Shown: positions 4,672-38,992 of the stretch, one piece after another
How positions within the stretch are numbered: the stretch's first letter is position 1
Layout of the letters: every line of letters begins with the position of its first letter
From: a virus
Strand: one strand, 5' to 3'
Virus record (IMG/VR): IMGVR_UViG_3300036760_000572
Location: 1-38,992 of that record
Length of the DNA stretch: 38,992 nucleotides
The notes under the pieces: model-generated
What the model was told of the DNA's origin: nothing
Seen by the model: only the letters and a program-made list of their open reading frames with translations
Database searches by the model: none
Translations under genes and position numbers: made by a program

Positions 4672-7443
4672 TCACGCCGCCGCCTTCCCGCGATGCTCGA
4701 ATACGATGTCGGTGTTCGACATGTCGAACTCGTCGTACACGATGCTGTTGTTGCCCGGCGCGAGCCGGAAGAGGTCGGCGCGGTTCGAGAAGTTGACGAC
4801 GCCCGCCACTTCCATCGACCAGTTGCCGACGATCCAGCGCACCGTGCGCGCTTCGAAGTCGATCTCAAGTGATTGATTCGTCTCCAGCCAGCAGTCGATG
4901 TCGACGTAGTCCCCGGTCGTGCTGTTCGTCAGCCGCCCGTTGCAGTGGTAGACCGAGCCGTGCCCGATGCCCGTCCCGCCCTCGCGGTCGACATACGGCG
5001 TGTATGCCTCCGGTGAGTAGGTGCCCGTCCCGTCGTTCAGCTTCAGGATGATGTTCTTGAACAGGGCGTTCGACTGTGAGGCCAGCACATCGACCTCCGC
5101 CTGCACGGGCCCGCCATTCGCGTGCAGCACGCGGTACCACGGCAGGATGCCGTTGACGATGTAGCCACCGCCTGCGCCCGCCTGCTGGTATGCCATCTGC
5201 TGGCTGCCCGTCTTGGAGTTGCCGCCGGCCACTAGTAAATTCCCCGAGCCAAAGACGCTGATCCGGATGCAGAGCTGATAGACGCCGGCTTTGAGCTGCA
5301 TCCCATCGCCGGTATTCGCCGTCCACAGATAATTGACGAAACCGGTCGTGATGCCGCCGGCCGTCGTCGCTCCGCCCGTCGTAAAGAAGCCGAGAAGCGC
5401 CGCGTCAACGGGCCGGCTGCCGCCGATCGGGGTGTTGTCGCGGATCAGGCATTCGAACGTGAAGCTGTCTCCGCCGCCTGACTTCTTCAATTTCAACTCG
5501 ACCGCCTCGATGCGGCTGTCTTCCTTCAGCTCGAACGGGATGCAGAGCTCCTGCGCTGTGTTGTTCTGGCCGATTGAAGCGGCTGCCGCCGTCAGGTCGC
5601 CCGTAATGGGCGCGCGCACGCCGGAGAGCACGACCCGCTTCAGCATGTCCGGGATCGTCTTGTTCTGGCCCGTCACCAGCGCCTCGTTCACGTCCTGCAA
5701 ATCGATCGCATTCAGCTCGATGCCATCTTCCGTCTCGCCAACCGCGCGGAGGCGCACCGCGTCGCGCTTCTGCGCGTCGTAGGTCAGCACTGTGCTCGAG
5801 TGCGGATGCGAGCGCTGCGGGAGATTCATCACATAGCGCGGCACTTCAGGCTTACCGCCCAGCGGGACGTCGTCGGTCCAGCCGAACTCGACCGCGCTGT
5901 TCGTCTCGATGCGCATGCCGCGGCAGCGGTTTTGATCGTCCGGGCGGGGGAACGGTCCCGCCGGCACTTCGCTTGAGGGCAGCCACATCGCCGTGCGGTT
6001 CGGGTATGCCGGGTCATAGCTGCGCGACCAGACGTCGTCGGCCAGGTCGCCCCAGCGCCACTCTTTGTTCTTGCTCGTCTTCAGCTGGATCGCCGGCCGC
6101 CGCTCAAGTTGGCTCGGTGGCTGCTGGTCGGGGTTGAAGAAATAGCCGGCGGCATGCACGAACAGGATCGGGTTGAAGAACGCGGGCGCAGCCGCGGCGT
6201 GGTTCGCCACCGCAGTCCCCCACATGCCGCGCCGGATGCCCGTCACGCGGCCGAGCGCCAGGTCCCGGCCGGTATAGCCGATCAGCTCGCTCTCGATGGC
6301 GAAGATGCCGACGTCGGCGATCGCCCCCACCCCTTCGTAGAACTGCAGGTAGCTGTCGTTCGCAGGGTACGGCCCGCTCGTCAGCGTCACCGTCGGGATG
6401 AGCTTCACGCGCGCCGGCATCGACATGTTGCCCCATATGCGCGACGTGCCGTTCGGGACGGCGACCCAGGCGTCGCCCGACAGCCCGTTCTGATAGAGCC
6501 GGAAGTCGCTCGCGTTCCGCAGCATCCCGCTCATGTACATCACCGAGTTGTCCGGCCATGCGCGGGCGGTCGTGCCGCCAACGCCGCGCTGGACGTTGTT
6601 GATCACCGTGCCGCTCTTCACGCCGTAATAGCACTGTTCGACGTTCACACCATCGTCGAAGATGAAGAACCCGCCCGACGCTGGCAACCCCCCGCCGACC
6701 GCCGTGTCGATCGACCAGCTGCTATCGCCGCTCCCGATCCCACCGCCGAGATTGATCTGGTTGCTGATGCCGGCGACCTTCACGACGGACGCCAGGTCCC
6801 GGGTGCCGTCCGCGCCACCCTGGTCGCACACCTGCACCGGCAGGTTGGCCCACGCGTCCGGCGAGCGGTTCACGATGAAGCCGCGCAAGGTCGAGATGAA
6901 GTCGTAGGCCGGGTCGGGCCCCTTCACGGCGCGCGGCGTGATCGTCACCTTCGGCTTCGTCGTCTTGTTGCCGTTGTTCGTCATCGTGTGCGAGTCGCTG
7001 TCGCCGCTCTTCGCCAGCCGGCTCGTGGTGGTGGCGGTATTCTCTTCCCACAGCGCGGGCGCCGGCACGAACAGCTTCACCAGCACCTCGATCGCGTTCA
7101 GCCAGCTCACTGAGATCACTGCTGCCGCCATCCGCCAGCTCGTGCCTGCGCCGTCCGTCGCCCGCACGAACGCCAGCGCCTTGTCCGGGTCGAACGTCTT
7201 GATCACGGTGTCGCGGTCCGAGTCCTGGATCGCCGCCATGTGGAAGTGCAGCTCGAGCACCCGGCCCTGCGGCTGCGAGCGCACGTATTGCGCGCCGCGG
7301 CCGACGACGTCCGCCGCCACGACGCCGATGCCGCTCGCATCGTTCATCGTCCCGTTGGAGAACGTGAAGTGGGCGTTCTTGAACGTGCCGGACGTCAGCG
7401 CGACTCCGTCGAAGTGCGTCGGGGTGCGGGCGAAGGCGGCCAC
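4672..7443 (-). CDS. Large distal tail protein (Dit-like) with extended central region
   Basis: A 923-aa protein starting at GTG 7443. The N-terminal 120 residues and the last 80 residues have the strand pattern of a distal tail (Dit) protein, and the C-terminal phrase of an SLEIDFEARTV type followed by W..N.S is characteristic of that fold. The centre, about residues 150-830, is a long Gly/Asn/Ser-rich beta region and probably holds inserted carbohydrate-binding or spacer domains. It lies between tape measure and hub, the usual Dit position. Ordinary Dit proteins are about 250 residues, so this is an evolved long form that may take part in host binding. Confidence 0.8.
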   Translation of the reverse strand: MAAFARTPTHFDGVALTSGTFKNAHFTFSNGTMNDASGIGVVAADVVGRGAQYVRSQPQGRVLELHFHMAAIQDSDRDTVIKTFDPDKALAFVRATDGAGTSWRMAAAVISVSWLNAIEVLVKLFVPAPALWEENTATTTSRLAKSGDSDSHTMTNNGNKTTKPKVTITPRAVKGPDPAYDFISTLRGFIVNRSPDAWANLPVQVCDQGGADGTRDLASVVKVAGISNQINLGGGIGSGDSSWSIDTAVGGGLPASGGFFIFDDGVNVEQCYYGVKSGTVINNVQRGVGGTTARAWPDNSVMYMSGMLRNASDFRLYQNGLSGDAWVAVPNGTSRIWGNMSMPARVKLIPTVTLTSGPYPANDSYLQFYEGVGAIADVGIFAIESELIGYTGRDLALGRVTGIRRGMWGTAVANHAAAAPAFFNPILFVHAAGYFFNPDQQPPSQLERRPAIQLKTSKNKEWRWGDLADDVWSRSYDPAYPNRTAMWLPSSEVPAGPFPRPDDQNRCRGMRIETNSAVEFGWTDDVPLGGKPEVPRYVMNLPQRSHPHSSTVLTYDAQKRDAVRLRAVGETEDGIELNAIDLQDVNEALVTGQNKTIPDMLKRVVLSGVRAPITGDLTAAAASIGQNNTAQELCIPFELKEDSRIEAVELKLKKSGGGDSFTFECLIRDNTPIGGSRPVDAALLGFFTTGGATTAGGITTGFVNYLWTANTGDGMQLKAGVYQLCIRISVFGSGNLLVAGGNSKTGSQQMAYQQAGAGGGYIVNGILPWYRVLHANGGPVQAEVDVLASQSNALFKNIILKLNDGTGTYSPEAYTPYVDREGGTGIGHGSVYHCNGRLTNSTTGDYVDIDCWLETNQSLEIDFEARTVRWIVGNWSMEVAGVVNFSNRADLFRLAPGNNSIVYDEFDMSNTDIVFEHRGKAAA

Positions 7444-7461: not shown

Positions 7462-9468
7462 TCAGGGAAGGTGCGGCGCGAGCGATTCCAGCGCGGTGCG
7501 CCCGTCGCCCTGCAGCTGGATCGGCCCGTAGATGTTGTAGATGGGCTGACGCCAATCAGTCTTAGATGTTGCGACGGGAGCTCCAGATTGTCCCTCGAAG
7601 ACTTCCGGCGCGATACCGTAGAAGCCATGGCGCCTAGCCTCACCGTATGACACGCCGCCGCCCTCGAAGACTTCCGGCGCGATACCGTAGAAGCCGTTCC
7701 GCTTGGCTTCCTGATAGAGCGCGCTCCCGGTGGCGCCGTTCGCGGTCGCCGCCGCGATGGCTGGGCCAATTGTCCGAAGCCAGCCTTGGAGTCCGCCCCA
7801 ACTCGAACGCATCCCTTCGCCGAGCCCGTCCATGATGAGCTTGCCAGATTGCACGAGCAATTCTGCGTCCCGTTCGGCGGGGCCCTTCAGGCCCTTGATC
7901 CATCCGCCGACTTGGCCCAGCCAGCCAGAGACATCCTCCCAGCCTTTCTTTAGGCCATCGAGGAGACCTTTCATGATGTCCTTCCCGATGTCGAAGAGCA
8001 GGCTGCTTAGGTCACCGAGCGCAGCAAGGATCTGTGGCCCCAACGCGGCGAAGAGATCAGCCAGTATCTTCAGCCTGGCTTTCAGGTCGTCCTCGACCAT
8101 CTGGACGGCAGCGGCGACGATCGCCTTCACGTCGTCCCACAGCTTGCCCCAGTTGCCGTGGAAGAGATCGCTGAAGAACTGGAAGACTGCCATGATGAGC
8201 CGCAGGCGGTCCTCGATCGCGGTCTTGATAGCGTTGAATACGTCGATGATCAGCTTCTTCAGCGCGCCCAGGTGCTCGTCGATGAAGTCGTTGATCGCGG
8301 TCCACACCTCGACCGTTTTCGCCTTGATTTCGTCCCAATGCCGCGCGAGGAAACCGATCAAGGTGATCAGGCCGACGATGGCGACAATGGCGGCTGCGCC
8401 AGGGCCCAGCGCGACGAGGATGGCTACGCCGATCGCGGCGATCGCTGCGACTAGGATGGGCTTGTGGTTGACGATGAACTCGAATAGCGGTTGGATGGTG
8501 CGCAGCCCGAGCTTAAAGTTCTCCCAGACGGCGAGTAGGTGCGGCTTCAACTCATCGAACGCGTGGCGTAGATCGCTCGCAAACCGCTCGATCTTGCCGA
8601 ACACCCCTTCGCTCGTGATGTCCGGGTCCTGCAACGTCGTGAAGAAGTCAGCGATCGCGCGGCTCAAGTTCTCCGCTCCGCGGCTGATCGAGTCCATGTG
8701 TTTCGCGAGCTTCGTCGACAGGAACGTCGCGAACCGCGTCAGCACCGGCAGCAGCGCCATGCCGATGGCCTCTTTCACGTTCCCGATCTGAGTCTGCAGG
8801 ATCTTCATCTTGCCGGCGAAGGTTTGCCCGGCGGCGCGGGCGCTGTTGCCGAACTCCGTGTTGAGCTCCTGTAGGATCACTCTTTGCGCGCCGGCGACAT
8901 CACCCGCGTCCATCATCGCCTGGATCTGATCCTTCTGGGCATCCGTCAGCTGCACCCCGACGCGCCGCAGGGCCGTCACGCCGGCGATCGGGTCGTTGAG
9001 CGCCTTACCAAGCCGCATCGCCGAGCTGACCGAGTCCTCGCCGAGCGCCGTCGCCATATCGAGCGCTGCCTCCGTCGCCTGGGGGAACACCTTCTTGCCG
9101 ACGTTCGTGAACGTCAGCAGCATGTTCTCGGTCGCCTGGATCACCTCGTCGTCGATCGGGATTACGCTCGAGAGACTGTTGGCGAGACCCGACACCGCGG
9201 CGGCGGTGACGCCGGCGATGCCCTTCGTTGATGCGAGCACTGCGTTCGTCTGCGCCTGCACCTTCTGGGCCTCCGCCGCCTCCTGGACGAATCCTTTCAA
9301 CGCGACGACGGCGATGCCGATGCCGCCAGCGGCGGCGAGGCCTCCGACCTTCAGGGCGCCGCTGAGGGCGCCGCCCAGGCCTTTCACCTTGCCATGAATG
9401 CCGTCGAGGGTCTTACTCGCCTCGTCTCGGGCTTTGATTAGAATCGCCAGCTCCGCAGCTGTCGTCAT
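7462..9468 (-). CDS. Tail tape measure protein
   Basis: This 668-aa protein is encoded right after the tail assembly chaperone, the standard location. It shows a helical N-terminus with a Gly/Ala-rich hydrophobic segment near residues 30-65. The TMP pattern follows (ASTKGI..., LxxVIPIDDEVIQ, FGNSARAAGQTFAGKMKILQTQ). A strongly hydrophobic membrane-like stretch lies around 340-385, then long helices. The C-terminus carries a duplicated GFYGIAPEVFEG phrase. TMP length sets tail length; at about 0.15 nm per residue it suggests a tail near 100 nm. No peptidase domain is apparent. Confidence 0.92.
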   Translation of the reverse strand: MTTAAELAILIKARDEASKTLDGIHGKVKGLGGALSGALKVGGLAAAGGIGIAVVALKGFVQEAAEAQKVQAQTNAVLASTKGIAGVTAAAVSGLANSLSSVIPIDDEVIQATENMLLTFTNVGKKVFPQATEAALDMATALGEDSVSSAMRLGKALNDPIAGVTALRRVGVQLTDAQKDQIQAMMDAGDVAGAQRVILQELNTEFGNSARAAGQTFAGKMKILQTQIGNVKEAIGMALLPVLTRFATFLSTKLAKHMDSISRGAENLSRAIADFFTTLQDPDITSEGVFGKIERFASDLRHAFDELKPHLLAVWENFKLGLRTIQPLFEFIVNHKPILVAAIAAIGVAILVALGPGAAAIVAIVGLITLIGFLARHWDEIKAKTVEVWTAINDFIDEHLGALKKLIIDVFNAIKTAIEDRLRLIMAVFQFFSDLFHGNWGKLWDDVKAIVAAAVQMVEDDLKARLKILADLFAALGPQILAALGDLSSLLFDIGKDIMKGLLDGLKKGWEDVSGWLGQVGGWIKGLKGPAERDAELLVQSGKLIMDGLGEGMRSSWGGLQGWLRTIGPAIAAATANGATGSALYQEAKRNGFYGIAPEVFEGGGVSYGEARRHGFYGIAPEVFEGQSGAPVATSKTDWRQPIYNIYGPIQLQGDGRTALESLAPHLP
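7592..7695 (-). repeat. 35-bp perfect direct repeat in tape measure C-terminus
   Basis: Two identical 35-bp copies (7592-7626 and 7661-7695) start 69 bp apart, exactly 23 codons, so the reading frame is kept. Each encodes the residues GFYGIAPEVFEG. The identity at DNA level, including third positions, indicates a recent in-frame duplication or gene conversion. Confidence 0.9.
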
Positions 9469-25099: not shown

Positions 25100-25404
25100 A
25101 GCGCCATCACCGTCTGTTCCATGCGTTTTGCCGCGATCATGGCTGACGGAGCCGGGCCCAGGTCCTTCGCCGCGCGCAGCGTCGTCCCGCTGCCCATGAA
25201 GGGATCCAGGCACCGTCTCGGGCCCGAGAAGGCTCAGCGCCCCCGTGAAGAGCCCCAATGGGTCGGCGGACCCGGCGAACTCAAGCATTGCGTTGGGCCA
25301 GACGGGATCAGTTATCACCGAGCTGCCCCCCCCAAGTCGGGCAGCAGGTCCCGGCAATCGCCATGGTAGATCGTCACCGCATCATCCTCGTAATACGGCT
25401 TCAT
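25096..25404 (-). pseudogene. Decayed DNA methyltransferase (N4/N6 family) with a G8 tract
   Basis: The N-terminus MKPYYEDDAVTIYHGDCRDLLP is a typical beta-class methyltransferase opening and ends at TGA 25315-25317. Just before this stop a run of eight G occurs. In the -1 frame after it the sequence continues with the catalytic-type motif VITDPVWPNAM. Back in the original frame, LDPFMGSGTTLRAAKDLG (the SAM-binding motif) runs to TGA 25096-25098. The protein would need two frame changes, and the region between the two motifs is far shorter than in intact enzymes. This is best read as a remnant with a frameshift and an internal deletion. Confidence 0.75.
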
Positions 25405-25883
25405 CGCAAAGCCCCGCGCGGTGCGGGCCGCAGCGGCGGGTACAGCTGCGGCCGGGCGGAGAACCCGAGCGGCGGCCGCAGCTCCTGCATCGTGTAGGCG
25501 CCGCCGAACCAGCAGTAGATGGCGGCTGCGACGAGCCGCGGGTTGAACGCGCGGCATGAGAACACATCGATCAGCAGGCGGCGGCCGCGGCCGTGGATGC
25601 TGATATGGGACTCCGCGATCAGCTGGTACGCCCACCACTCGTTCGGGTTGGCGCGCTCGTCGACGACGACCGTGGGCGCCGCGATCGCCTTCATGTCGAT
25701 GACGCGCACGATGTCGTCCAGGAACTTGCGCAGCTGCCGTTCGGTCGGGATCTGGCGGTGAGGCTCGGCGGGCCCGAGCTGAACGCCGCCGGGGCGCTCG
25801 CCCAGATCTACCACCCCATCCCACGCCCAATGATGCTTCTGCAACTCGGGCAGCTGGCGCGTTGCGCCGTTCGTCATCGTCAT
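25401..25883 (-). CDS. S-adenosylmethionine decarboxylase family protein (SpeD-like, pyruvoyl enzyme)
   Basis: A 160-aa protein from ATG 25883 (ATGA overlap with the upstream methyltransferase stop). Residues 88-112 contain the SpeD signature LIAESHISIH then DVFSC. The self-cleavage site is Glu91-Ser92, with the processing His97 and catalytic Cys110 all present. After cleavage Ser92 would become the pyruvoyl group. An N-terminal HHWAWDGVVDL strand precedes. The family decarboxylates SAM for spermidine synthesis, and several bacterial and phage homologues have changed substrate to ornithine or arginine. No partner aminopropyltransferase is seen. The C-terminal 25 residues are Pro/Arg-rich. Confidence 0.88.
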   Translation of the reverse strand: MTMTNGATRQLPELQKHHWAWDGVVDLGERPGGVQLGPAEPHRQIPTERQLRKFLDDIVRVIDMKAIAAPTVVVDERANPNEWWAYQLIAESHISIHGRGRRLLIDVFSCRAFNPRLVAAAIYCWFGGAYTMQELRPPLGFSARPQLYPPLRPAPRGALR

Positions 25884-26596
25884 GGTCGGGCTCGGCCGGC
25901 CTTGGCCGGCGCGGCCTGCCACACCACGACCGCGCTCGGGAACGGCGCGCCGGTCGGTACGTAGCGATCGCAGCCGCAGCCGGCGCACACCCCGCCGACG
26001 TGCTCGGTCGCGCAGCTCGGGCGGCCGCCGGGGCAGCGCGCGCATGGGGCGCCGACGAACTTCACGCGATGATCGAGGAATTGACACATCGTCAGAAGCC
26101 GATGAGAGCTATCGACTTCATCAGCGTTGACGTTCACGTCCCAGCGGCGCAAGACATACTGCTGCCACCACTTGGTGTCCGGCCGCACAGGTAGCAGCGC
26201 GAGGGCGTGGCGGCGGACGTGGCCCGCAGCGACCTCACCGACGATGCGCGCCACCCACACCTTCAGCTCGTCGCCGTATGGCGGGTTGACGTATGCGGCG
26301 TCGCAGTCCCACGGCTGGATTAGGCCGTCGAGGGCGTCCGTGCTGCCGTCGAAGAAGCGGCCGCCGGCGCGGTGGATCCGGAACGCGCTGTAGTGGTGCT
26401 CGCGCTGGCCGCATGGGTCGAGGTCGAATGGGCCGTATTTCGCCCACAGCTCGTCGAACAGCGCGGCCGGCGTCTCCCAATCGGCGCGCTGAGCCCGGCG
26501 CATGTAGGCACCGCCGGATCCGGTGGGTGCCGCCGTGGCCATGGCGCCGCCCTCACTAGCAGAGGTGGCGTTGGTAGGCGCGCGCTTCCTAGGCAA
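25880..26596 (-). CDS. Phage DNA N6-adenine methyltransferase (Dam-like) with Cys insert
   Basis: A 238-aa protein. TTG 26596 has AGGAG 8 nt upstream; ATG 26542 is an alternative. Motifs are DWETPAALFDELWAKYGPFDLDPC (phage Dam family opening) and AAYVNPPYGDELKVW (catalytic NPPY). Further on, ALALLPVRPDTKWW is followed by a Cys-rich stretch near residues 186-212 (C..C, C, C..C.C) that looks like an inserted zinc-binding loop. The C-terminus ends with a PSAVVVWQ strand. Such enzymes methylate adenine in viral DNA, giving protection from restriction or marking it for regulation. It overlaps both neighbours. Confidence 0.9.
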   Translation of the reverse strand: MPRKRAPTNATSASEGGAMATAAPTGSGGAYMRRAQRADWETPAALFDELWAKYGPFDLDPCGQREHHYSAFRIHRAGGRFFDGSTDALDGLIQPWDCDAAYVNPPYGDELKVWVARIVGEVAAGHVRRHALALLPVRPDTKWWQQYVLRRWDVNVNADEVDSSHRLLTMCQFLDHRVKFVGAPCARCPGGRPSCATEHVGGVCAGCGCDRYVPTGAPFPSAVVVWQAAPAKAGRARP

Positions 26597-28648: not shown

Positions 28649-30046
28649 CTATGACTCTCTCACCATCACGAACGGGCCGCTGTTCCCGTCCCTCGCGGCG
28701 TCCGCGGCGACGTCGACGCCGAAGGTCCAGGCGACGGCCTGCTGGCAGGTCTGCATCGCCGGTGGCACGCCCAGCACGTACTGGTGGCCGGTGGAGGGGC
28801 AGTCTACGACGACGACGCGCGCTTCGCGGTCCGGCATGTTGGGCATGGGGATGGCGAGTAGGCGCCGTGTGTTGCCCTGGCCATCGACGTCGCGGTGGAT
28901 GATCTTCGCTTCGCTCTCGGCCGCGAAGCGCTCGATGCCGACGCGCTCGAGCATGACGCGCGCGACCTCGGCGTTCGCTTCCTCGATGATCTCCATATGG
29001 GTGATCGACTGCGGCTGCTCGATCACGCGCGGCGGGACGCGGACGCCATGCCAGACGTGCAGCGACCAGCCGTCCGGGTACTGCAACGCGGGGCCGTCTT
29101 CGCGGTGCAGGCGGTTCGCGAACTCGCCTCGATCCGGCAGCGGTTCCAGCGCGAGCGTGCTGGGTCGCTCCGACACCCAACAGATCTTCTCGTGCGGGAA
29201 CGCCCAGCCGGCAGACCGTCCGAGCTCCCAAAGGCCAGCGAGCTTCTCCGTCTGGTGTTTCAGCCCGATGCGAGCGAAGAAGTCGTAGAAGCTGAGCCAT
29301 TCAGCGTCGTGTTGGCCATACACGCTGGCCCGGACGCTGTCCCGGACGCTGGCCCAGACGCTGTCCCGGACGCTGTCCCAGACGCTGTCCCGGACGCTGG
29401 CCCCGACGCTGTCCCGGACGCTGTCCCAAACGCTGTCCCGGACGCTGGCCCCGACGCTGTCCCGGACGCTGGCCCCGACGCTGTCCCAGACGTTGGCCCC
29501 GACGCTGTCCCGGACGCTGTCCCCGACGTTGGCCCGGACGCTGGCCCAGACGTTGGCCCCGACGTTGGCCCAGACGCTGTCCCGGACGCTGGCCCAGACG
29601 CTGTCCCAGACGCTGTCCCAGACGTTGGCCCCGACGCTGTCCCGGACGCTGTCCCGGACGCTGTCCCAGACGTTGGCCCCGACGCCGTTCCAAACGCTGT
29701 CCCGGACGCTGGCCTTCTTCGTGATCAGATCTAGGACGATCGAGCGCGTCAGCGCGAGGCTCATCGGCGAGCCACACCAAACGATCCGCTCGGGCGCCTT
29801 CTTCCCGCCGCATTCGTACATCAGGCGGATCGCCCGCTCGGCGGCGACGCGGTCGGCGGGGCGCGTGTCGAGGCCGGCGGCGATCCACTCATCGCGCACG
29901 ATGGGGATCAGCGCCTGCTGTTTCGCCGTCAGCCGTTGGATCTTGTGCGCGGCCGCGGCGAGTTCGCCGGTGGAGAGCACGCGACCGTCCGGCCCGACCT
30001 GGCCCTGGCCCTGGCTGTAGCCCTTCGCCTTCTTGTTAGTCGGCAA
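28649..30046 (-). CDS. DUF6745-like protein with long tetrapeptide-repeat array
   Basis: A 465-aa protein starting at TTG 30046 inside the preceding gene. Residues 1-110 are helical (EWIAAGLDTRPADRVAAERAI, then IVWCGSPMSLAL). Residues 112-242 are 32 tandem tetrapeptides of form [WRG]-[DA]-[SN]-V plus a partial unit, with one divergent WNGV copy. Residues 243-465 contain WLSFYDFFARIG and LHREDGPALQYPDGW followed by HGVRVPPRVIE, and a helix with EEANAEVARVMLERVG. This tail is the pattern I associate with the DUF6745 family. Function is unknown. The array may form a helical or solenoid spacer, and its length may vary between related phages. Confidence 0.82.
   Translation of the reverse strand: MPTNKKAKGYSQGQGQVGPDGRVLSTGELAAAAHKIQRLTAKQQALIPIVRDEWIAAGLDTRPADRVAAERAIRLMYECGGKKAPERIVWCGSPMSLALTRSIVLDLITKKASVRDSVWNGVGANVWDSVRDSVRDSVGANVWDSVWDSVWASVRDSVWANVGANVWASVRANVGDSVRDSVGANVWDSVGASVRDSVGASVRDSVWDSVRDSVGASVRDSVWDSVRDSVWASVRDSVRASVYGQHDAEWLSFYDFFARIGLKHQTEKLAGLWELGRSAGWAFPHEKICWVSERPSTLALEPLPDRGEFANRLHREDGPALQYPDGWSLHVWHGVRVPPRVIEQPQSITHMEIIEEANAEVARVMLERVGIERFAAESEAKIIHRDVDGQGNTRRLLAIPMPNMPDREARVVVVDCPSTGHQYVLGVPPAMQTCQQAVAWTFGVDVAADAARDGNSGPFVMVRES
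29321..29713 (-). repeat. 12-bp tandem repeat array (32 units)
   Basis: The array is 393 bp: 32 twelve-base units plus nine bases. On the coding strand each unit is NGG GMC ARC GTC, and variation is almost limited to one base in each of the first three codons: T, C or G; A or C; G or A. Units are in frame, so gain or loss of copies would keep the protein readable. All frames on both strands are open here, so other ORFs are artefacts. Confidence 0.95.
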
Positions 30047-30380
30047 CGTTCCGGATCTCCCCGCCGAGCGTATACTCGCGCTGAATCTTCACCTGGTACA
30101 CGCCGGGCTCGAGCACTTGCGGTCCGTGTTCCTCGTGCGTCAGGGTCGCGCCCTTGCCGGCCGCGTCGCCCTCGACCACGATGTAGCGCTGCTCGCCGGC
30201 GTGCCACATCGAGACCTTGTGCGGAGCGAGGATGCGGTGCGCGTGGCCGGTGACTTCGCCGTAGGCGAGAACGAGATCGGGCCGCGGCAGGTCCTGCCGC
30301 TTGGCGTTCATCGGCAACGTCGCGATCGGGAAGATCCCGACGTCGCCCTGGCGGATCATTTTGATTGGCTGCGGCTTCAT
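30036..30380 (-). CDS. Small conserved phage protein next to DUF6745-like gene
   Basis: A 114-aa protein starting at ATG 30380. The first part is IKMIRQGDVGIFPIATLP and the middle contains LAYGEVTGHAHRI. A RYIVVEG strand follows, and then HEEHGPQVLEPGVYQVKIQ with REYTLGGEIRNVAD at the end. The beta-rich arrangement with conserved His residues (GHAH, HEEH) is reminiscent of a small cupin-like fold. Such genes occur beside DUF6745-type genes in other genomes, to my knowledge. The stop lies 11 nt inside the next gene, indicating coupled translation. Confidence 0.78.
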   Translation of the reverse strand: MKPQPIKMIRQGDVGIFPIATLPMNAKRQDLPRPDLVLAYGEVTGHAHRILAPHKVSMWHAGEQRYIVVEGDAAGKGATLTHEEHGPQVLEPGVYQVKIQREYTLGGEIRNVAD

Positions 30381-31426
30381 CGTGTTGCTCCTGCTCCTTC
30401 CAAACTGCGTGAACTCCTAACCGGCATCTCGTCGTGCAAGCGGCCGTCGAGCCATCGCCCGCCACTCTTCGGTGTAGGCCCGCCCCATTGCTTGAAAAAG
30501 AAGGGCACGTCGGCGGCGGTGCATTGATCACGGAGTGAGCGAACCCACTCGTGCGGCATCGGCCGGAAGCCGTTGCCCGATTCACCGCCGACGATCACCC
30601 AATCGAGGAACGGCCCGCCGAGCTTGCGCGCGGCGGCCGCGACCTGAGCGAGAGCGCGCAGCTTTATAGGGTCGATGGTGCCGCAGACCGTGACATTCGC
30701 CGTCAACCACGCCCCGAGATCCACCGGCCCCAGTAGGGGCTCCGCGCTGATGAACCGCACGGCCGCCGGCGTCGCCAGCAGCAGCGGGATCCTCTCATCG
30801 GCGAAGTGCTGATTCTCGACCGACACGCCGAGCCAGACATTGGGCAGCGGCCAATGGGGCAGAAAGGTCTCTTCCTGAATGCCGTGCGACTCATGCCAAG
30901 CGGAGGCTCGATTCAGCGCCGTGGGCGACACCTTACCGAACAAGCTCGTGACCGCGCCGAGCATCCGCCATTGAACGTCCGTTCCTGGCTTCCAGCCCGT
31001 GCCGTCATTGTCAACGTGATAGTTGTTGCCTGGCTTCGGTCGCGTCATATAGGATCGCATTCGCTCCGGGCGCTTTGTCAGCACTTGAAACGTGTGCATC
31101 GGCGCGAGCGCCATCACCGCGAAGACGCGATCGATCAACTCGTCAGGCACGTCGTCGTGGAAGAGATCGCTCAGGCTGTTGACGAAGATGCGGCGGGGCC
31201 GCCTCCACCGCAGCGGTAGATCGAGGCGGTCCAGGTGCAGCTGCAGGCCGCCGCGCGTCGTCGACGCGTTGCCGACGCGAACAAACGGGCGCGGCTGGCC
31301 GGCCGCGCCGCGGAACGGCGGCGTCCTTTCGATGTAACAGTGGGCGCAGCCCGGCGAGACGCGCGTGCAGCCAGTGAGGACGTTCCACGTCGCATCCGTC
31401 CAGCCGATCTCGCTTTTGTCGCTCAT
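30377..31426 (-). CDS. Phage Gp37/Gp68-like protein (DUF5131), radical-SAM-like
   Basis: A 349-aa protein with the family opening IGWTDATWNVLTGCTRVSPG and cysteines C20, C27 and C30 (C-x6-C-x2-C). These sit at the N-terminal end of a likely TIM-barrel, as in radical SAM-like proteins. Further blocks are FVNSLSDLFHDDVPDELI, FQVLTKRPERM, NVWLGVSVENQ, RFISAEPLLG and DWVIVGGESG. The C-terminal block is PFFFKQWGG. Chemistry is not established for the family. The gene overlaps the upstream end of the 114-aa gene by 4 nt. A nucleic acid modification role would suit its neighbourhood. Confidence 0.9.
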   Translation of the reverse strand: MSDKSEIGWTDATWNVLTGCTRVSPGCAHCYIERTPPFRGAAGQPRPFVRVGNASTTRGGLQLHLDRLDLPLRWRRPRRIFVNSLSDLFHDDVPDELIDRVFAVMALAPMHTFQVLTKRPERMRSYMTRPKPGNNYHVDNDGTGWKPGTDVQWRMLGAVTSLFGKVSPTALNRASAWHESHGIQEETFLPHWPLPNVWLGVSVENQHFADERIPLLLATPAAVRFISAEPLLGPVDLGAWLTANVTVCGTIDPIKLRALAQVAAAARKLGGPFLDWVIVGGESGNGFRPMPHEWVRSLRDQCTAADVPFFFKQWGGPTPKSGGRWLDGRLHDEMPVRSSRSLEGAGATR

Positions 31427-31759: not shown

Positions 31760-31954
31760 CTACTCCTTCGCTTTTCGTTCCATCGGCTCGATGTAGCAGC
31801 GCGGGGTGCCGCAGATCGACGTGATGGCGAGCACGAGCCGCCAGCTCTTCATGTTGCCGCTCATGCCCTGGTGGAAGTGCTGGCCATGGCGCGCGAAGAA
31901 GGCCTTCAGCTGAGCCGCCGTCTCCGGCATGACGCTGCTGGTATGCGCGGCCAT
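31760..31954 (-). CDS. 64-aa small protein
   Basis: A short protein starting at ATG 31954 that overlaps the TGA of the HNH gene (TGATGG). It begins with a polar stretch, then a helix (ETAAQLKAFFARHGQHF), a Gly-rich turn and a hydrophobic strand (RLVLAITSICG) with two Cys, and ends basic. The longer open frame in the same phase is Arg-rich shadow. No family is recognised; coupling with the neighbours supports translation. Confidence 0.6.
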   Translation of the reverse strand: MAAHTSSVMPETAAQLKAFFARHGQHFHQGMSGNMKSWRLVLAITSICGTPRCYIEPMERKAKE

Positions 31955-32616
31955 CAGGCGGGCACCTCCGCTTCGCGCTGCGCGGCGGCCGCCGCTCGCG
32001 CGGTCTTCCGGCGTTCCTCCGCCTGGCGATTCGTCTCGGCGGTATGGCACTTCCGGCACAGCGTCTCGAGGTGTTCCTGGTGGTTGTGGCAGCCGCTTGC
32101 ATAGCCGCCGCCGGCGCGGGGCGTACGGTGGTTCACCTCGAGGCCAGCGCGTTGATACTGCGCGTATTTCGATCGGCCCAGCCGGCGGCCACGGCGGCGC
32201 AGGCGCGGGTCGTCGTCGGTAGCCGGTCGGAGTTGCGCCTTCTCTCTCGGTTCGCCGTCGCCGCCGCAGCGGACGCAGCGGCGGTCGCGCCGGATGGCGA
32301 AGGCACGCGCCGTGTTCCAGTCGTGGTTGACACGCCACCAGTGGGTGCACGCGGCGCTGCAGAACCACTTCACTCCGCGAGCGACCTGGTCGTCCGTCAG
32401 CTGCCCGCCGCAGGTCGCGCAACTGCCGCAGCCCGGCTTCCAGAGCCAGCCTTCGCCGCCGTCTTCGTAATCGTCGCAGTAGGTCGGGTAGGGCATGGCG
32501 GGGATATCCGCGCCGGCGCGCTGGCCGGCAACGGTCACGCGCGGCTGCGGCCGTTCGAGCGATGGAGCTAGCAGCTCAGCCTTCGTTTGCGCGCCGCGGC
32601 GCTCAGGCTCGCTCAT
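31954..32616 (-). CDS. HNH nuclease with additional zinc-ribbon segments
   Basis: A 220-aa protein with three parts. The N-terminal region (residues 45-95) is Cys-rich (CGSCATCGG, then FCSAAC). A middle C-x2-C pair (CVRC) is followed by a charged Arg-rich linker. The C-terminal HNH core reads GLEVNHRTPRAGGGYASGC, HNHQEHLETLCRKCH, with the zinc Cys pair and the His residues in place. It is a separate gene from the packaging HNH at 23742-24110. It may be a homing-type or recombination nuclease in the early region. Confidence 0.85.
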   Translation of the reverse strand: MSEPERRGAQTKAELLAPSLERPQPRVTVAGQRAGADIPAMPYPTYCDDYEDGGEGWLWKPGCGSCATCGGQLTDDQVARGVKWFCSAACTHWWRVNHDWNTARAFAIRRDRRCVRCGGDGEPREKAQLRPATDDDPRLRRRGRRLGRSKYAQYQRAGLEVNHRTPRAGGGYASGCHNHQEHLETLCRKCHTAETNRQAEERRKTARAAAAAQREAEVPA

Positions 32617-33185
32617 TGCGGTTGGTCGTCCTCGTCGGCCGGGCGGGTCAGTTGCCGGCAGTACCAGTTCAGGTATTGCGCCGGCGAGACGATGTTGTCG
32701 CGCCAGTGGAGCGTGAGCCCGTCGCCGAAGTCGAACTCATCGACCTCGGAGCGGTCCAGATGGGTCGTCATGTCGCGCAGCGCTTCGATCACAAGCCGAG
32801 CGCCATATTTTGCCAATAGGGCCCGGCCGCCGACGAACTTCGGCAGCCCAGCTAGCGTGCCGCGACGGCTGGATTCCTTCGGTGGGTGAACCTCGAACGG
32901 CCTCATCCGGCGAGGGATCTCGGCGGGGCAATATTTCTCGAGCCACGCCACCACCCGGCGGTCCATCTTCGCCAGCGGCCGCGCGCGTCGCGGTGCTCCG
33001 CGCGCCTTGACGGACGGTTTTGACGGACTGACTGATAGACGGACGTCCGTCTGTCTGTCCATCTGTCCGTCAAAAGATCGACCGTCAAGATCTTCCCGGC
33101 TGGGCGCGCGCACGCCAGGCTCCTCCGCGGGGGGCGGCACGAGGCGAGGCCACATCTGCCGGGCAGCCGCGTCTTGGCCCACCAT
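32613..33185 (-). CDS. Candidate replication protein containing the iteron cluster
   Basis: A 190-aa protein with no clear family match. The N-terminal third is polar and of low complexity (residues 30-60, rich in Asp, Gln, Arg and Ser) and is encoded by the repeat-rich DNA at 33007-33088. From residue 70 on it is a folded helical domain: MDRRVVAWLEKYCPAEIP, GGRALLAKYGARLVIEAL, and a final segment with DNIVSPAQYLNWYCRQL. Its place beside a recombination nuclease and regulator, and the iterons within it, recall lambda O. That function is inference. The start at 33185 overlaps the preceding stop. Confidence 0.72.
   Translation of the reverse strand: MVGQDAAARQMWPRLVPPPAEEPGVRAPSREDLDGRSFDGQMDRQTDVRLSVSPSKPSVKARGAPRRARPLAKMDRRVVAWLEKYCPAEIPRRMRPFEVHPPKESSRRGTLAGLPKFVGGRALLAKYGARLVIEALRDMTTHLDRSEVDEFDFGDGLTLHWRDNIVSPAQYLNWYCRQLTRPADEDDQPQ
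33007..33088. other. Symmetric iteron cluster, candidate replication origin
   Basis: Four exact copies of TTGACGG occur. Two are on the plus strand (33007-33013, 33020-33026) and two are on the minus strand (33067-33073, 33082-33088). They flank a perfect 14-bp palindrome, GACGGACGTCCGTC, at 33038-33051. Partial copies of GTCTGTC and GTCCATC type fill the right half. Such density within 82 bp is not explained by coding needs and fits a binding site for an initiator or regulator. Confidence 0.7.
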
Positions 33186-33541
33186 CAGACAGCCTCTTGT
33201 GGTAGGAAATTTTCGCGGGGGACGTTGACAGCTTCGGCCGTGGCGAGGTCCATCTTGTCGATCGCGCGATCGTAGTGATTGTGGCAGGCCGTCTGTGAGA
33301 TGCCGCCCAGGTGGATCGCGATCTCACCCCACGACCAATGGCGGACTTCGCGCAGCACAACGACGGTCGCCTGACGCTCCGTCAGCGCGGGCCATCGTCC
33401 GATCGCCGCCGCGACGTCGCGGCCCAGCTGCTCTCGAAACCGCCGGTGAAGCGCATCGGGGTGATGGTGCGACAGGCGGTTCCGCAGGTAGAGGACGCCG
33501 GGGAGCCGTGCGAGACGCGTTCCAGATCGCGCAGCCTTCAT
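33185..33541 (-). CDS. Sigma region 4-like HTH protein
   Basis: A 118-aa protein with a basic N-terminus and a helical core. Residues 48-95 (ALTERQATVVVLREVRHWSW then GEIAIHLGGISQTACHNHYDRAIDKM) match a sigma-70 region 4-type helix-turn-helix, with an expected recognition helix around the SQTACHNH stretch. It is overlapped on both sides by neighbours (4 nt and 1 nt). It could be a transcription regulator of early or middle genes, or a partner of host RNA polymerase. No core-binding region 2 is present, so it is not a complete sigma factor. Confidence 0.8.
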   Translation of the reverse strand: MKAARSGTRLARLPGVLYLRNRLSHHHPDALHRRFREQLGRDVAAAIGRWPALTERQATVVVLREVRHWSWGEIAIHLGGISQTACHNHYDRAIDKMDLATAEAVNVPRENFLPQEAV

Positions 33542-34203
33542 CGTAAACGCACCTCAACGTGCTGTTCGCGGCCGTCCATCGCCTCAGCGATGTCGACTGC
33601 GGCGAAAGCGACGAGATCGTTTTCGAGCACGCCGGCATCGACAAGCCCGGCTAGGCCGTGACGCAGCATCGCGAGCAGGTTCGTTTTGTCGCGCCGCCGA
33701 CGTTCGCGTGTGAAGAAAATGACGTCGGCCTCGACGGGGCTGGTGAGTGGCAGCCGGAATGCGCCGGAGCGACGCTCGTTCATCGTCTGCGCGCGTGCCT
33801 TGTCGTGGCACTCCTGACGATAGCTGGCGGTTGCGGCATCGCGGTCAGCGCCGGACACCCGGGTGTTCACGCTGAGCGCGGCGGGCGGGTAGGGGAGGAC
33901 AAGCCGCAGCCGGCTCTTCGCGTTGGTGCGGCTGCCAAGTTCGAGCTGCGCCGACTCGCCGTCGGGGATGAGGTGCGCGCTGATCGGACGGCCGCGCTGT
34001 TCCATCTTCGCGACGGCGGGCAGGATCCGCAGCGTGTTGCGGTCGAGCGGGACGCGCACGACCAGGTCGATGTAGCCCAGGCGGTCGCCGTCTCGCGCCC
34101 TCGTGTTGTGATAGCGGAGTGTCGCGAACGGGAAATGTGCGCCGGCGGGCCCGCCGTGGGCGGCCCGGCCTTCGTTCGATCGTGCGCTGTCCTTGCGCCT
34201 CAC
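33538..34203 (-). CDS. RusA-like Holliday junction resolvase
   Basis: A 221-aa protein. The RusA-like part occupies residues 100-221: LRLVLPYPPAALSVNTR, an ADVIFFTRERRRRDKTNLLAMLRHGLAGLVDAGVLEND-type block, and the last strand QHVEVRL. The R-R-D-x-x-N-L segment and the acidic residue of ENDLV are the usual metal-binding positions. RusA enzymes are about 120 residues; the N-terminal 100 residues here are extra, with beta strands of the kind IDLVVRVPL and no known domain. It likely resolves branched DNA before packaging. Confidence 0.8.
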   Translation of the reverse strand: MRRKDSARSNEGRAAHGGPAGAHFPFATLRYHNTRARDGDRLGYIDLVVRVPLDRNTLRILPAVAKMEQRGRPISAHLIPDGESAQLELGSRTNAKSRLRLVLPYPPAALSVNTRVSGADRDAATASYRQECHDKARAQTMNERRSGAFRLPLTSPVEADVIFFTRERRRRDKTNLLAMLRHGLAGLVDAGVLENDLVAFAAVDIAEAMDGREQHVEVRLR

Positions 34204-35653: not shown

Positions 35654-35682
35654 ATTATCAGGCATCACCTGATAACTGTCAA
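35654..35682 (-). promoter_or_regulatory. Leftward early promoter
   Basis: A perfect -35 TTGACA (35677-35682) and a -10 GATAAT (35654-35659) are 17 bp apart on the minus strand. The operator palindrome occupies the whole spacer and most of the -10. This is the strongest promoter match in the window and drives the early genes. Confidence 0.85.
35655..35675. promoter_or_regulatory. Operator for the Cro/CI-like regulator
   Basis: Two perfect 8-bp inverted arms, TTATCAGG and CCTGATAA, are separated by CATCA. The site overlaps the leftward promoter between its -35 and -10 boxes, so a bound dimer would block it. The regulator gene starts 85 bp to the right. A second full copy of the palindrome is not visible nearby. 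Confidence 0.8.
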
Positions 35683-35723
35683 GGGGTTTTGAGGACGTTT
35701 TGGGCACGAATTTCAGATCGGAC

Positions 35724-35752
35724 TTGACGACTCGGCGCGGTCGTCCTAGAAT
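35724..35752 (+). promoter_or_regulatory. Rightward promoter of the regulator gene (leaderless transcript)
   Basis: TTGACG (35724-35729) and TAGAAT (35747-35752) have a 17-bp spacer on the plus strand. The expected transcription start falls at 35759-35760, the A of the regulator ATG. No Shine-Dalgarno sequence precedes that ATG, which supports a leaderless message, as for lambda cI from its maintenance promoter. Confidence 0.75.
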
Positions 35753-36011: not shown

Positions 36012-36947
36012 ATAGAAACACCGGCGGGCGAGCCGTGGCGGGACAGCTTCCGGCTCTACCTCTTACGCCAGGGACTGGCACAATCCACAGCCCGGGGCTA
36101 CGTCCTCGACGCCCTCTATCTGCGACGTTGGCTGGCCGCCCGGCCGGACGCGCCGAACGCGCCGGACGCGCCGCCGATCGACATCGACGCCGCCACGCGG
36201 GACGACATTGTCCAGTTCATCGACTGGTATCGCAGCCGCTACTCGCAATCGGCCACTGTCCGCCGCGTCGCCGCCCTCCGCCACTACTTCCGCTGGCTGA
36301 TCGAGCAAGGGCGCCGATCTCCGGATGACGACCCCACCGCCGGCATCCGGTTGAAGCACCCGCCGCCGGTCGCGAAAAAACCATTCGCCGACGACCAGCT
36401 ACAACGACTGTACGCCGCCTGCAAGCCGAACCGGCCGCACGAACGGGCCGCCGTGCTGCTGCTCATCGATACCGGGCTGCGCCTCTCCGAGATCGCGGGG
36501 CTGCGGCGCAAGAACGTCGACGAAGAGCAGGGCGTCATTCGCGTGACGGGCAAGGGGTCGAAGGAACGGCTTCTAGCGCCGACGCCGCGATCGCTGGCCG
36601 CGCTGCTTGCCACTATGGTCGACGCCGGGCCGGACGGTGCGCTGCGGCCGCGCGACTATCCCTGGTACAGTCAGCGCCTGCACGGCCCGATGACGAAGGA
36701 CGGCTTCTATGACATGATCCACCGGCTCGGCCGCCGCGCCGGCGTCGATGTCGCGCATATCCGCCGGTTCCGCACGACGTTCGCCTGCAACATCATCGAG
36801 GCAACGGATGGCGATGTCGGCTCAGCGCAGGTCCTGATGGGGCACTCGAAGATCGAGACGACGCTGCAGTACGCGAGCTGGACACGCGTCAACCGCGCCC
36901 TGAAACAGCAGCGCCGCGTCGGGCTGGCGGACCGTCTCGTGGGGTAG
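36012..36947 (+). CDS. int: Tyrosine recombinase (integrase), no canonical start codon
   Basis: The frame from 36012 to TAG 36945-36947 gives a full-size 311-aa enzyme. A SAM-like core-binding domain (SFRLYLLRQGLAQSTARGY, then a FIDWYRSRYS block) is followed by the catalytic domain. The latter has TGLRLSEIAGLR (Arg I), GKGSKERLL (Lys), RRFRTTFAC (Arg II, box II) and MGHSKIETTLQYAS (His, Tyr). The usual first His of HxxR is Arg here. No ATG, GTG or TTG occurs before TTG 36351, which would remove the core-binding domain. ATA 36012 follows directly after the repressor stop, with AAGGAG 11 nt upstream. Confidence 0.88.
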   Translation: METPAGEPWRDSFRLYLLRQGLAQSTARGYVLDALYLRRWLAARPDAPNAPDAPPIDIDAATRDDIVQFIDWYRSRYSQSATVRRVAALRHYFRWLIEQGRRSPDDDPTAGIRLKHPPPVAKKPFADDQLQRLYAACKPNRPHERAAVLLLIDTGLRLSEIAGLRRKNVDEEQGVIRVTGKGSKERLLAPTPRSLAALLATMVDAGPDGALRPRDYPWYSQRLHGPMTKDGFYDMIHRLGRRAGVDVAHIRRFRTTFACNIIEATDGDVGSAQVLMGHSKIETTLQYASWTRVNRALKQQRRVGLADRLVG

Positions 36948-38368: not shown

Positions 38369-38442
38369 AGCGCCTCCACCTCCGCTACGAACGCGCACAG
38401 CCACGCGCAAAACGCTGCGAGGAGCCAGAGCGCGCAGATCAT
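38365..38442 (-). CDS. 25-aa membrane micropeptide in lysis cassette
   Basis: This short frame reads M-I-C-A-L-W-L-L then A-A-F-C-A-W-L-C-A-F-V and an acidic end. The ATG overlaps the stop of the holin-like gene (ATGA), and the TGA overlaps the GTG of the next gene. The hydrophobic run of about 18 residues can span a membrane. Exact coupling on both sides is the main argument that it is a gene. Role unknown; pinholin-like or regulatory functions are possible. Confidence 0.6.
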   Translation of the reverse strand: MICALWLLAAFCAWLCAFVAEVEAL

Positions 38443-38951
38443 GGCAGCACCCCGATCAGCCCAGCGTCGAGCTGTAAGATGAGCAGCGCGTCTATCGGGT
38501 TGACCCGCCCGTCGCCACTAGCGTCCGCGTTGCCGATGCAGCTCGGCATCGAGAGCCCCGCGCTGTACTGGATGACAGCGAGCGCGTCCAGCGCGTCGAC
38601 CGTCCCCGTACAGTCCGCGTCGCCGCGTAAGCCGGCAGCGTTGGCGCGGCCCGCCGGCATGAGCGCGCCGGCGGCTGCGAGCGTGAGCGCCAGGCCCAAG
38701 AGCACGATGGCGCCGACGATGGGCGCCGCCGGCGCGAGCGGCGCGAGCGACGGCAGCGACGGCTGGCCCACGATCTTCTGCACCGTCCGCTCGACGAAGT
38801 ACCAGCCGATCGCCGCGACGCCGAGGTTGCGGAACCAATCAGGCACGTCGCGCCCGGTGAAGATAGCGGCGATGAACGCGCCCATGAAGGCCAGCGCGAT
38901 CACCGGCCGCGTCAGCGTCTTCACCACCTCCGTAAACGTCTCAGTCTTCAT
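38439..38951 (-). CDS. Holin-like membrane protein with C-terminal dockerin repeats
   Basis: A 170-aa protein. TM1 is near residues 16-32, a second hydrophobic stretch near 41-53 ends in WYFVERTVQK (holin-like), and a Pro/Ala linker and TM3 (76-97) follow. The C-terminal 63 residues carry two dockerin-type calcium loops, D111-D122 (DADCTGTVDALD) and D143-D154 (DASGDGRVNPID), each followed by the helix pattern ALxxxQ...AGL. Cys114 and Cys138 could pair. With two inner TMs the dockerin part would lie on one side of the membrane only, probably outside. It is the candidate holin, but the dockerin tail is unusual for phages. Confidence 0.78.
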   Translation of the reverse strand: MKTETFTEVVKTLTRPVIALAFMGAFIAAIFTGRDVPDWFRNLGVAAIGWYFVERTVQKIVGQPSLPSLAPLAPAAPIVGAIVLLGLALTLAAAGALMPAGRANAAGLRGDADCTGTVDALDALAVIQYSAGLSMPSCIGNADASGDGRVNPIDALLILQLDAGLIGVLP

Positions 38952-38992
38952 CTTCTTCTTCGTCTCCTCTCTCCATAGTTGGCGCCGGCGGC
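38866..38992. repeat. Direct terminal repeat, right copy
   Basis: This is identical to bases 1-127. It includes the 5' 86 bp of the holin-like gene and the end of the gene before it. On the circular map these bases should be counted once. Confidence 0.95.

Follow-up and report, generated by a model that had tools for sequence, protein, structure and literature searches.

The window, by which we mean the whole 38,992-nt stretch of viral DNA analysed here, begins and ends with the same 127 bases (1-127 = 38866-38992). This exact terminal overlap makes a complete circular genome of ~38,865 bp very likely, and the record, circular or terminally redundant, is probably complete. Portal, capsid, terminase and tail genes lie on the minus strand together with the early genes, while the integrase is encoded on the plus strand (Table 1). 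The presence of a tyrosine integrase indicates that the phage is probably temperate. Within the early operon, to which the genes of the RusA-like resolvase, the 118-aa protein and the HNH protein also belong, lies the gene of a 190-aa protein, here called P0001, whose start codon overlaps the stop codon of the upstream gene (TGATG). The product of this upstream gene, with its helix-turn-helix (HTH), is a possible DNA-binding partner. The initial annotation had remarked that no other replication gene is recognisable, and this holds for the early genes scanned, among which we recognised no helicase, primase, polymerase or known initiator, and no ParA/ParB-like gene.

Table 1. Coordinates of the features of the window that are referred to in the text, together with other genes noted along the genome.
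Feature	Positions	Strand	Remarks
S-adenosylmethionine decarboxylase-like ORF	25401-26087		
Dam-type methyltransferase	25880-26596		
465-aa repeat protein	28649-30046	-	phrog_31813
12-nt tandem repeat	29322-29714		~32 copies; encodes WDSVRDSV-type repeats in the 465-aa protein
DUF5131 protein	30377-31426	-	E 1e-88
HNH endonuclease-like protein	31954-32616	-	directly downstream of P0001
P0001, 190 aa, no known family	32613-33185	-	codons ~33-60 form the array; residues ~75-181 conserved in the L010 homologue
84-bp imperfect palindrome (the array), GACN/NGTC units at 4-nt spacing	33006-33089	.	centre 33046/33047 in GACGGACGTCCGTC
118-aa protein, sigma-70 region-4-like helix-turn-helix	33185-33541	-	directly upstream of P0001
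RusA-like Holliday-junction resolvase	33538-34203	-	early operon; phrog_34, 1.7e-13
Sigma-70-like promoter candidate	35654-35682	-	leftward early operon; 11/12 consensus bases
Second sigma-70-like promoter candidate	35724-35752	+	
Tyrosine integrase	36351-36947	+	
Phage protein, membrane-like N-terminus	38439-38951	-	C-terminal dockerin type I domain

Two genes elsewhere in the genome deserve mention in their own right. A homologue of the 465-aa repeat protein in another contig (L049, 629-2086) has a repeat of another kind, DARDALAAL, in the corresponding position, as though the tract in this protein family turned over as DNA. Dockerins such as the one near the end of the window recall Chloroflexota, which we take to be a possible hint at the host.

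According to the initial annotation, four exact TTGACGG copies were arranged head-to-head around GACGGACGTCCGTC within 82 bp, inside a coding gene. Both points were confirmed: the copies lie at 33007 and 33020 on the plus strand and at 33067 and 33082 on the minus strand, GACGGACGTCCGTC is found between the pairs at 33038-33051, and the cluster is contained in the 190-aa ORF, encoding DGRSFDGQMDRQTDVRLSVSPSKPSV. With a fifth, isolated copy at 30700 the number of TTGACGG words in the whole window is at chance level (4.84 expected), so that the clustering, and not the total, is the signal. Four non-overlapping copies of any other 7-mer within 82 bp occur only at 29.3-29.7 kb, in a tandem repeat that is itself coding. 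The unit that is actually repeated is GACN in one arm and NGTC in the opposite arm, spaced at 4 nt (15 GAC/GTC words within the 84 bp), and TTGACGG is the junction of the GACN run with its T-rich flanks.

The arms of the inverted repeat (33018-33045 and 33048-33075) are 82% complementary, and the resulting palindrome score of 14 is the best in the window, the next, unrelated palindrome scoring 9. In 60 Markov simulations of the whole window the mean score was 10.2, and one of the 60 reached at least 14. A survey of TerL-related phage loci totalling 852 kb gave only two palindromes as strong as the array, and neither was in an evident gene. As single-stranded DNA the array is predicted to fold at -29.1 kcal/mol (z = -6.3 relative to shuffled sequence). 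Its AT content is 46%, as against a window average of 33%; there is no AT-rich tract beside it, and the AT-richest 100-bp windows all lie elsewhere. A literature search by the letters of the motif returned no relevant paper.

Two lines of evidence support that the array is likely constrained at the DNA level. First, the palindrome was rarely recovered by synonymous recoding: when codons were resampled with the P0001 protein held fixed, one as good was obtained in 4 of 3000 trials, and permutation of P0001's own synonymous codons gave an equally good one in 2 of 3000. Both tests take as given a protein sequence that is unusual in its own right, so that they would underestimate the effect if it is the DNA that dictates the protein. 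Secondly, the codons of the array are unusual, insofar as its 28 codons belong to the lowest 1.4% of 28-codon windows for codon fit and have a GC3 of 0.54, compared with 0.80 in the remainder of the P0001 gene. The earlier impression that the protein sequence here looks as if it followed the need of the DNA is thus supported as regards the constraint on the DNA.

P0001 itself had no match in Pfam, PHROG, NCBIfam or PDB and contains no recognisable DNA-binding domain, and a fold search with structure models of low confidence gave no fold match. Among 2.9 million viral contigs, TTGACGGACNGACNGACNGAC matches five, and one of these, IMGVR_UViG_3300022665_000989 (hereafter L010), which was retrieved through the motif itself, encodes a P0001 homologue of 137 aa (tblastn E 6e-18 over residues 75-181; 44% identity in the alignment). 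The detection of this homologue by tblastn is independent of the motif, and it is the only relative found. The L010 contig is 12,534 nt long, and its ends overlap by 144 nt. Its circular genome of 12.4 kb, unusually small for a temperate tailed phage, contains genes for portal, capsid, terminase, endolysin and integrase, and has a head module unlike that of the window phage. The integrase is the only other clear protein common to the two phages; the further protein matches, which scored low and were obtained without low-complexity filtering, are not considered reliable, and no homologue of the 118-aa HTH protein was found in L010.

The part of P0001 encoded by the array is a linker that is missing from the L010 homologue, and the arrays of L010, at 5126-5149 and 8651-8696, both lie outside the homologous gene. 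The first is situated in a small Zn-ribbon ORF downstream of the integrase, and the second upstream of the endolysin gene at the head of the structural genes, in an AT-rich gap. Each of them is unidirectional and not palindromic, and the T-tract ends TTTGACGGAC are common to the arrays of both phages. Three ATCGTCTACAC-like copies, which may represent another binding cluster, are present in L010 at 8319-8390. Given that L010 possesses both a P0001 homologue and the motif outside the gene, gene family and motif appear to move as a pair, with the motif changing its place, and the motif does not appear to be tied to the reading frame. A search for the motif in relatives, suggested earlier as a check, has accordingly given a divided answer: motif and P0001 homologue recur together in L010, but not with the motif inside the gene. 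This association rests on one homologue.

Searches for further relatives were negative within the collections covered. No close relatives of P0001, RusA or the HTH protein were found in IMG/VR; P0001 and its L010 homologue had no relative among the named phages of INPHARED, and against plasmids they gave just one match at E=4 and no credible relative. A profile search of 1,532 bacterial genomes from five phyla, limited in its sensitivity, revealed no credible P0001 relative, its marginal N-terminal matches (E 5e-4 to 1e-3) being taken as noise. Among TerL relatives, neither tblastn against the 80 loci nor a profile search of 26 full records detected P0001.

Similar arrays were encountered in other settings. 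The full palindrome, used as a DNA pattern, had a single, unrelated match (L004), and the head-to-head GACN pattern gave three weak cases in viral contigs. A protein of one contig, L013, has a replication-type look by eye and no match in Pfam or NCBIfam; at 1-160 of the same contig a palindromic ATTGGCTCAGCCTGAGCCA repeat is present in four copies, in frame in coding sequence, and adjoins a GACGGAC...GTCCGTC pair. In bacterial genomes, head-to-head GACN arrays fall mostly between genes and show no evident connection with replication or with a function, and GACN/GTCN arrays also occur in the leader of a TROVE-like gene (L007) and in a low-complexity tail protein (L009). Two motif matches, L008 and L011, contain TTGACGGAC arrays in frame within DUF6017-type genes, an assignment that was confirmed by Pfam in L008 and is based on resemblance by eye and alignment only in L011. 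A 175-aa ORF of L011 (9178-9702) contains two copies of the peptide GVPRNERSEFWGFQV, one on either side of its GACN array, an arrangement reminiscent of an inserted repeat element. The DUF6017 domain (PF19481) was not found in the window genome, in a search in which the control genomes likewise gave no match. Comparison of P0001 with DUF6017 sequences by hhalign gave a probability of 0.1 and no similarity, and GACN arrays were absent from four plasmid-borne DUF6017 genes examined.

We propose that the locus holds an iteron-type, cis-acting protein-binding array which is kept at the DNA level and which, together with the P0001 family, makes up a module of two parts. The role that we consider most probable is that of a replication origin, with P0001 as the initiator or as a factor recruiting helicase or primase, and we put the probability of this reading at roughly 0.45. 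Since a distinct phage, L010, carries a P0001 relative as well as the same repeats, the repeats are probably a docking site for P0001, most likely where copying of the phage DNA starts. According to this proposal P0001, alone or with a partner, would bind the phased GACN units of the two arms in head-to-head orientation, and the complex or the hairpin would open locally. The host replisome would then be recruited, because replicative enzymes are not seen in the phage itself. As the array lies in the part of the gene that codes for a dispensable linker, the protein sequence there would follow the DNA.

The idea of an origin with its initiator, put forward by the initial annotation, is thus upheld in part. 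It is favored by the DNA-level constraint, by the position in the linker and by the co-occurrence of motif and gene in L010, whereas the lack of a DNA-binding domain or fold in P0001 and the location of the motif outside the gene in L010 speak against it. The proposed check on GC skew also went against an origin at the array: the skew of the window, which is confounded by gene class, turns at ~20 kb and ~36 kb and not at 33 kb, and no skew switch coincides with the array in the window or in the L010 genome.

The main rival sees an operator or regulatory site in the array and has P0001 or another phage regulator bind GACN arrays for transcription control (e.g. a late or early switch) and not for replication. 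In L010 the arrays are found at more than one place, one of them upstream of the endolysin gene heading the structural genes and the other downstream of the integrase, as might be expected of such sites, and both phages are of temperate type, with integrases. However, the array of the window sits within a gene in the middle of the operon, well away from the structural genes as well as from the divergent promoter candidates (35654-35752), and forms a single cluster, unlike dispersed operators. We regard control of transcription as unlikely. Dispersed operators of the stoperator type were considered separately and rejected, there being one cluster in the window and two array sites in L010 and not many intergenic copies.

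It is distinctly unlikely that the array is a recently expanded tetranucleotide repeat or a functionless chance hairpin, with a coincidental match in L010. The occurrence of GACN/GTCN arrays in the unrelated places described above (bacterial intergenic regions, the TROVE-like leader, the tail protein) speaks for this reading, but coincidence is made unlikely by the synonymous-codon tests, the head-to-head symmetry, the T-tract ends shared with L010 and the rarity of both the P0001 gene and the motif. An improbable explanation, in our view, is that some other factor (the 118-aa HTH protein, a host initiator or a partition protein) binds the array and that P0001 is a bystander. The HTH encoded immediately upstream is consistent with this, as is the overlap of its gene with the P0001 start, which suggests translational coupling; yet L010 has the motif and a P0001 relative without a detectable HTH homologue, and the early genes scanned offered no candidate for partition. 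That the array acts as an RNA or hairpin element (transcription terminator, attenuator or single-strand priming site) is very improbable in spite of the strong predicted hairpin, since on either strand the T-tracts come before the stem, on its 5' side, and an intrinsic terminator has the reverse order. Such a terminator was rejected on these grounds and by a terminator scan that did not list the array. In addition, there is no Rfam family match, the array lies mid-gene and the L010 arrays are unidirectional and non-palindromic.

Returning to the origin reading, it may be extended, with the odds against it, to the proposal that P0001 is the first member of a new family of phage replication initiators which lack a recognisable helix-turn-helix and whose portable GACN-phased array can reside inside the gene or elsewhere, similar arrays having arisen separately inside unrelated initiator genes of the DUF6017 type. 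If the origin reading as such is right, an initiator family and its recognition site would be named for phages otherwise devoid of visible replication genes, and a further independent case would be added in which the linker-coding part of an initiator gene conceals the origin. The existence of a relative, L010, with the DNA element outside the gene would moreover make the question of whether the protein follows the DNA testable, and the pair of motif and gene could be searched for in metagenomes.

L010 is the nearest system available for comparison: it resembles the window phage in its P0001 homologue, its TTTGACGGAC(NGAC)n arrays, its circular genome and its integrase, and differs in its size of 12.4 kb, its unrelated structural genes and its non-palindromic arrays outside the gene. 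Among well-studied systems, the lambda origin sits in the middle of gene O, where repeat number can vary and the protein varies with it (PMC7466680). The iterons are repeated, each being an imperfect 19-bp inverted repeat, and adjoin an AT-rich tract. The layout suggested by the initial annotation resembles this insofar as a repeat cluster occupies the middle of an early phage gene, in its linker-coding part. The likeness goes no further: the window has one head-to-head tetranucleotide array in place of repeated iterons, and has no AT tract beside it. Lambda O has an N-terminal DNA-binding domain; P0001, with only ~35 residues before the array-coding stretch, has none that we could find and shows no homology to O. 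Membership of P0001 in an O-like or replisome-organiser family was rejected on the absence of database matches noted above. In pSK41 and pT181 the origin is likewise inside the rep gene, and the protein stretch encoded there is dispensable (PMC5703833). The Rep boxes of pSK41, a RepA_N system, resemble our array in being repeats inside the linker-coding part of a gene. P0001 differs in having no RepA_N domain (PF06970) and no Pfam match at all, and the ~35 residues leave no room for an N-terminal DNA-binding domain like that of pSK41 Rep. In conclusion, membership in either group is not supported, and it is by analogy that P0001 and its array may work like the lambda O or the RepA_N systems.
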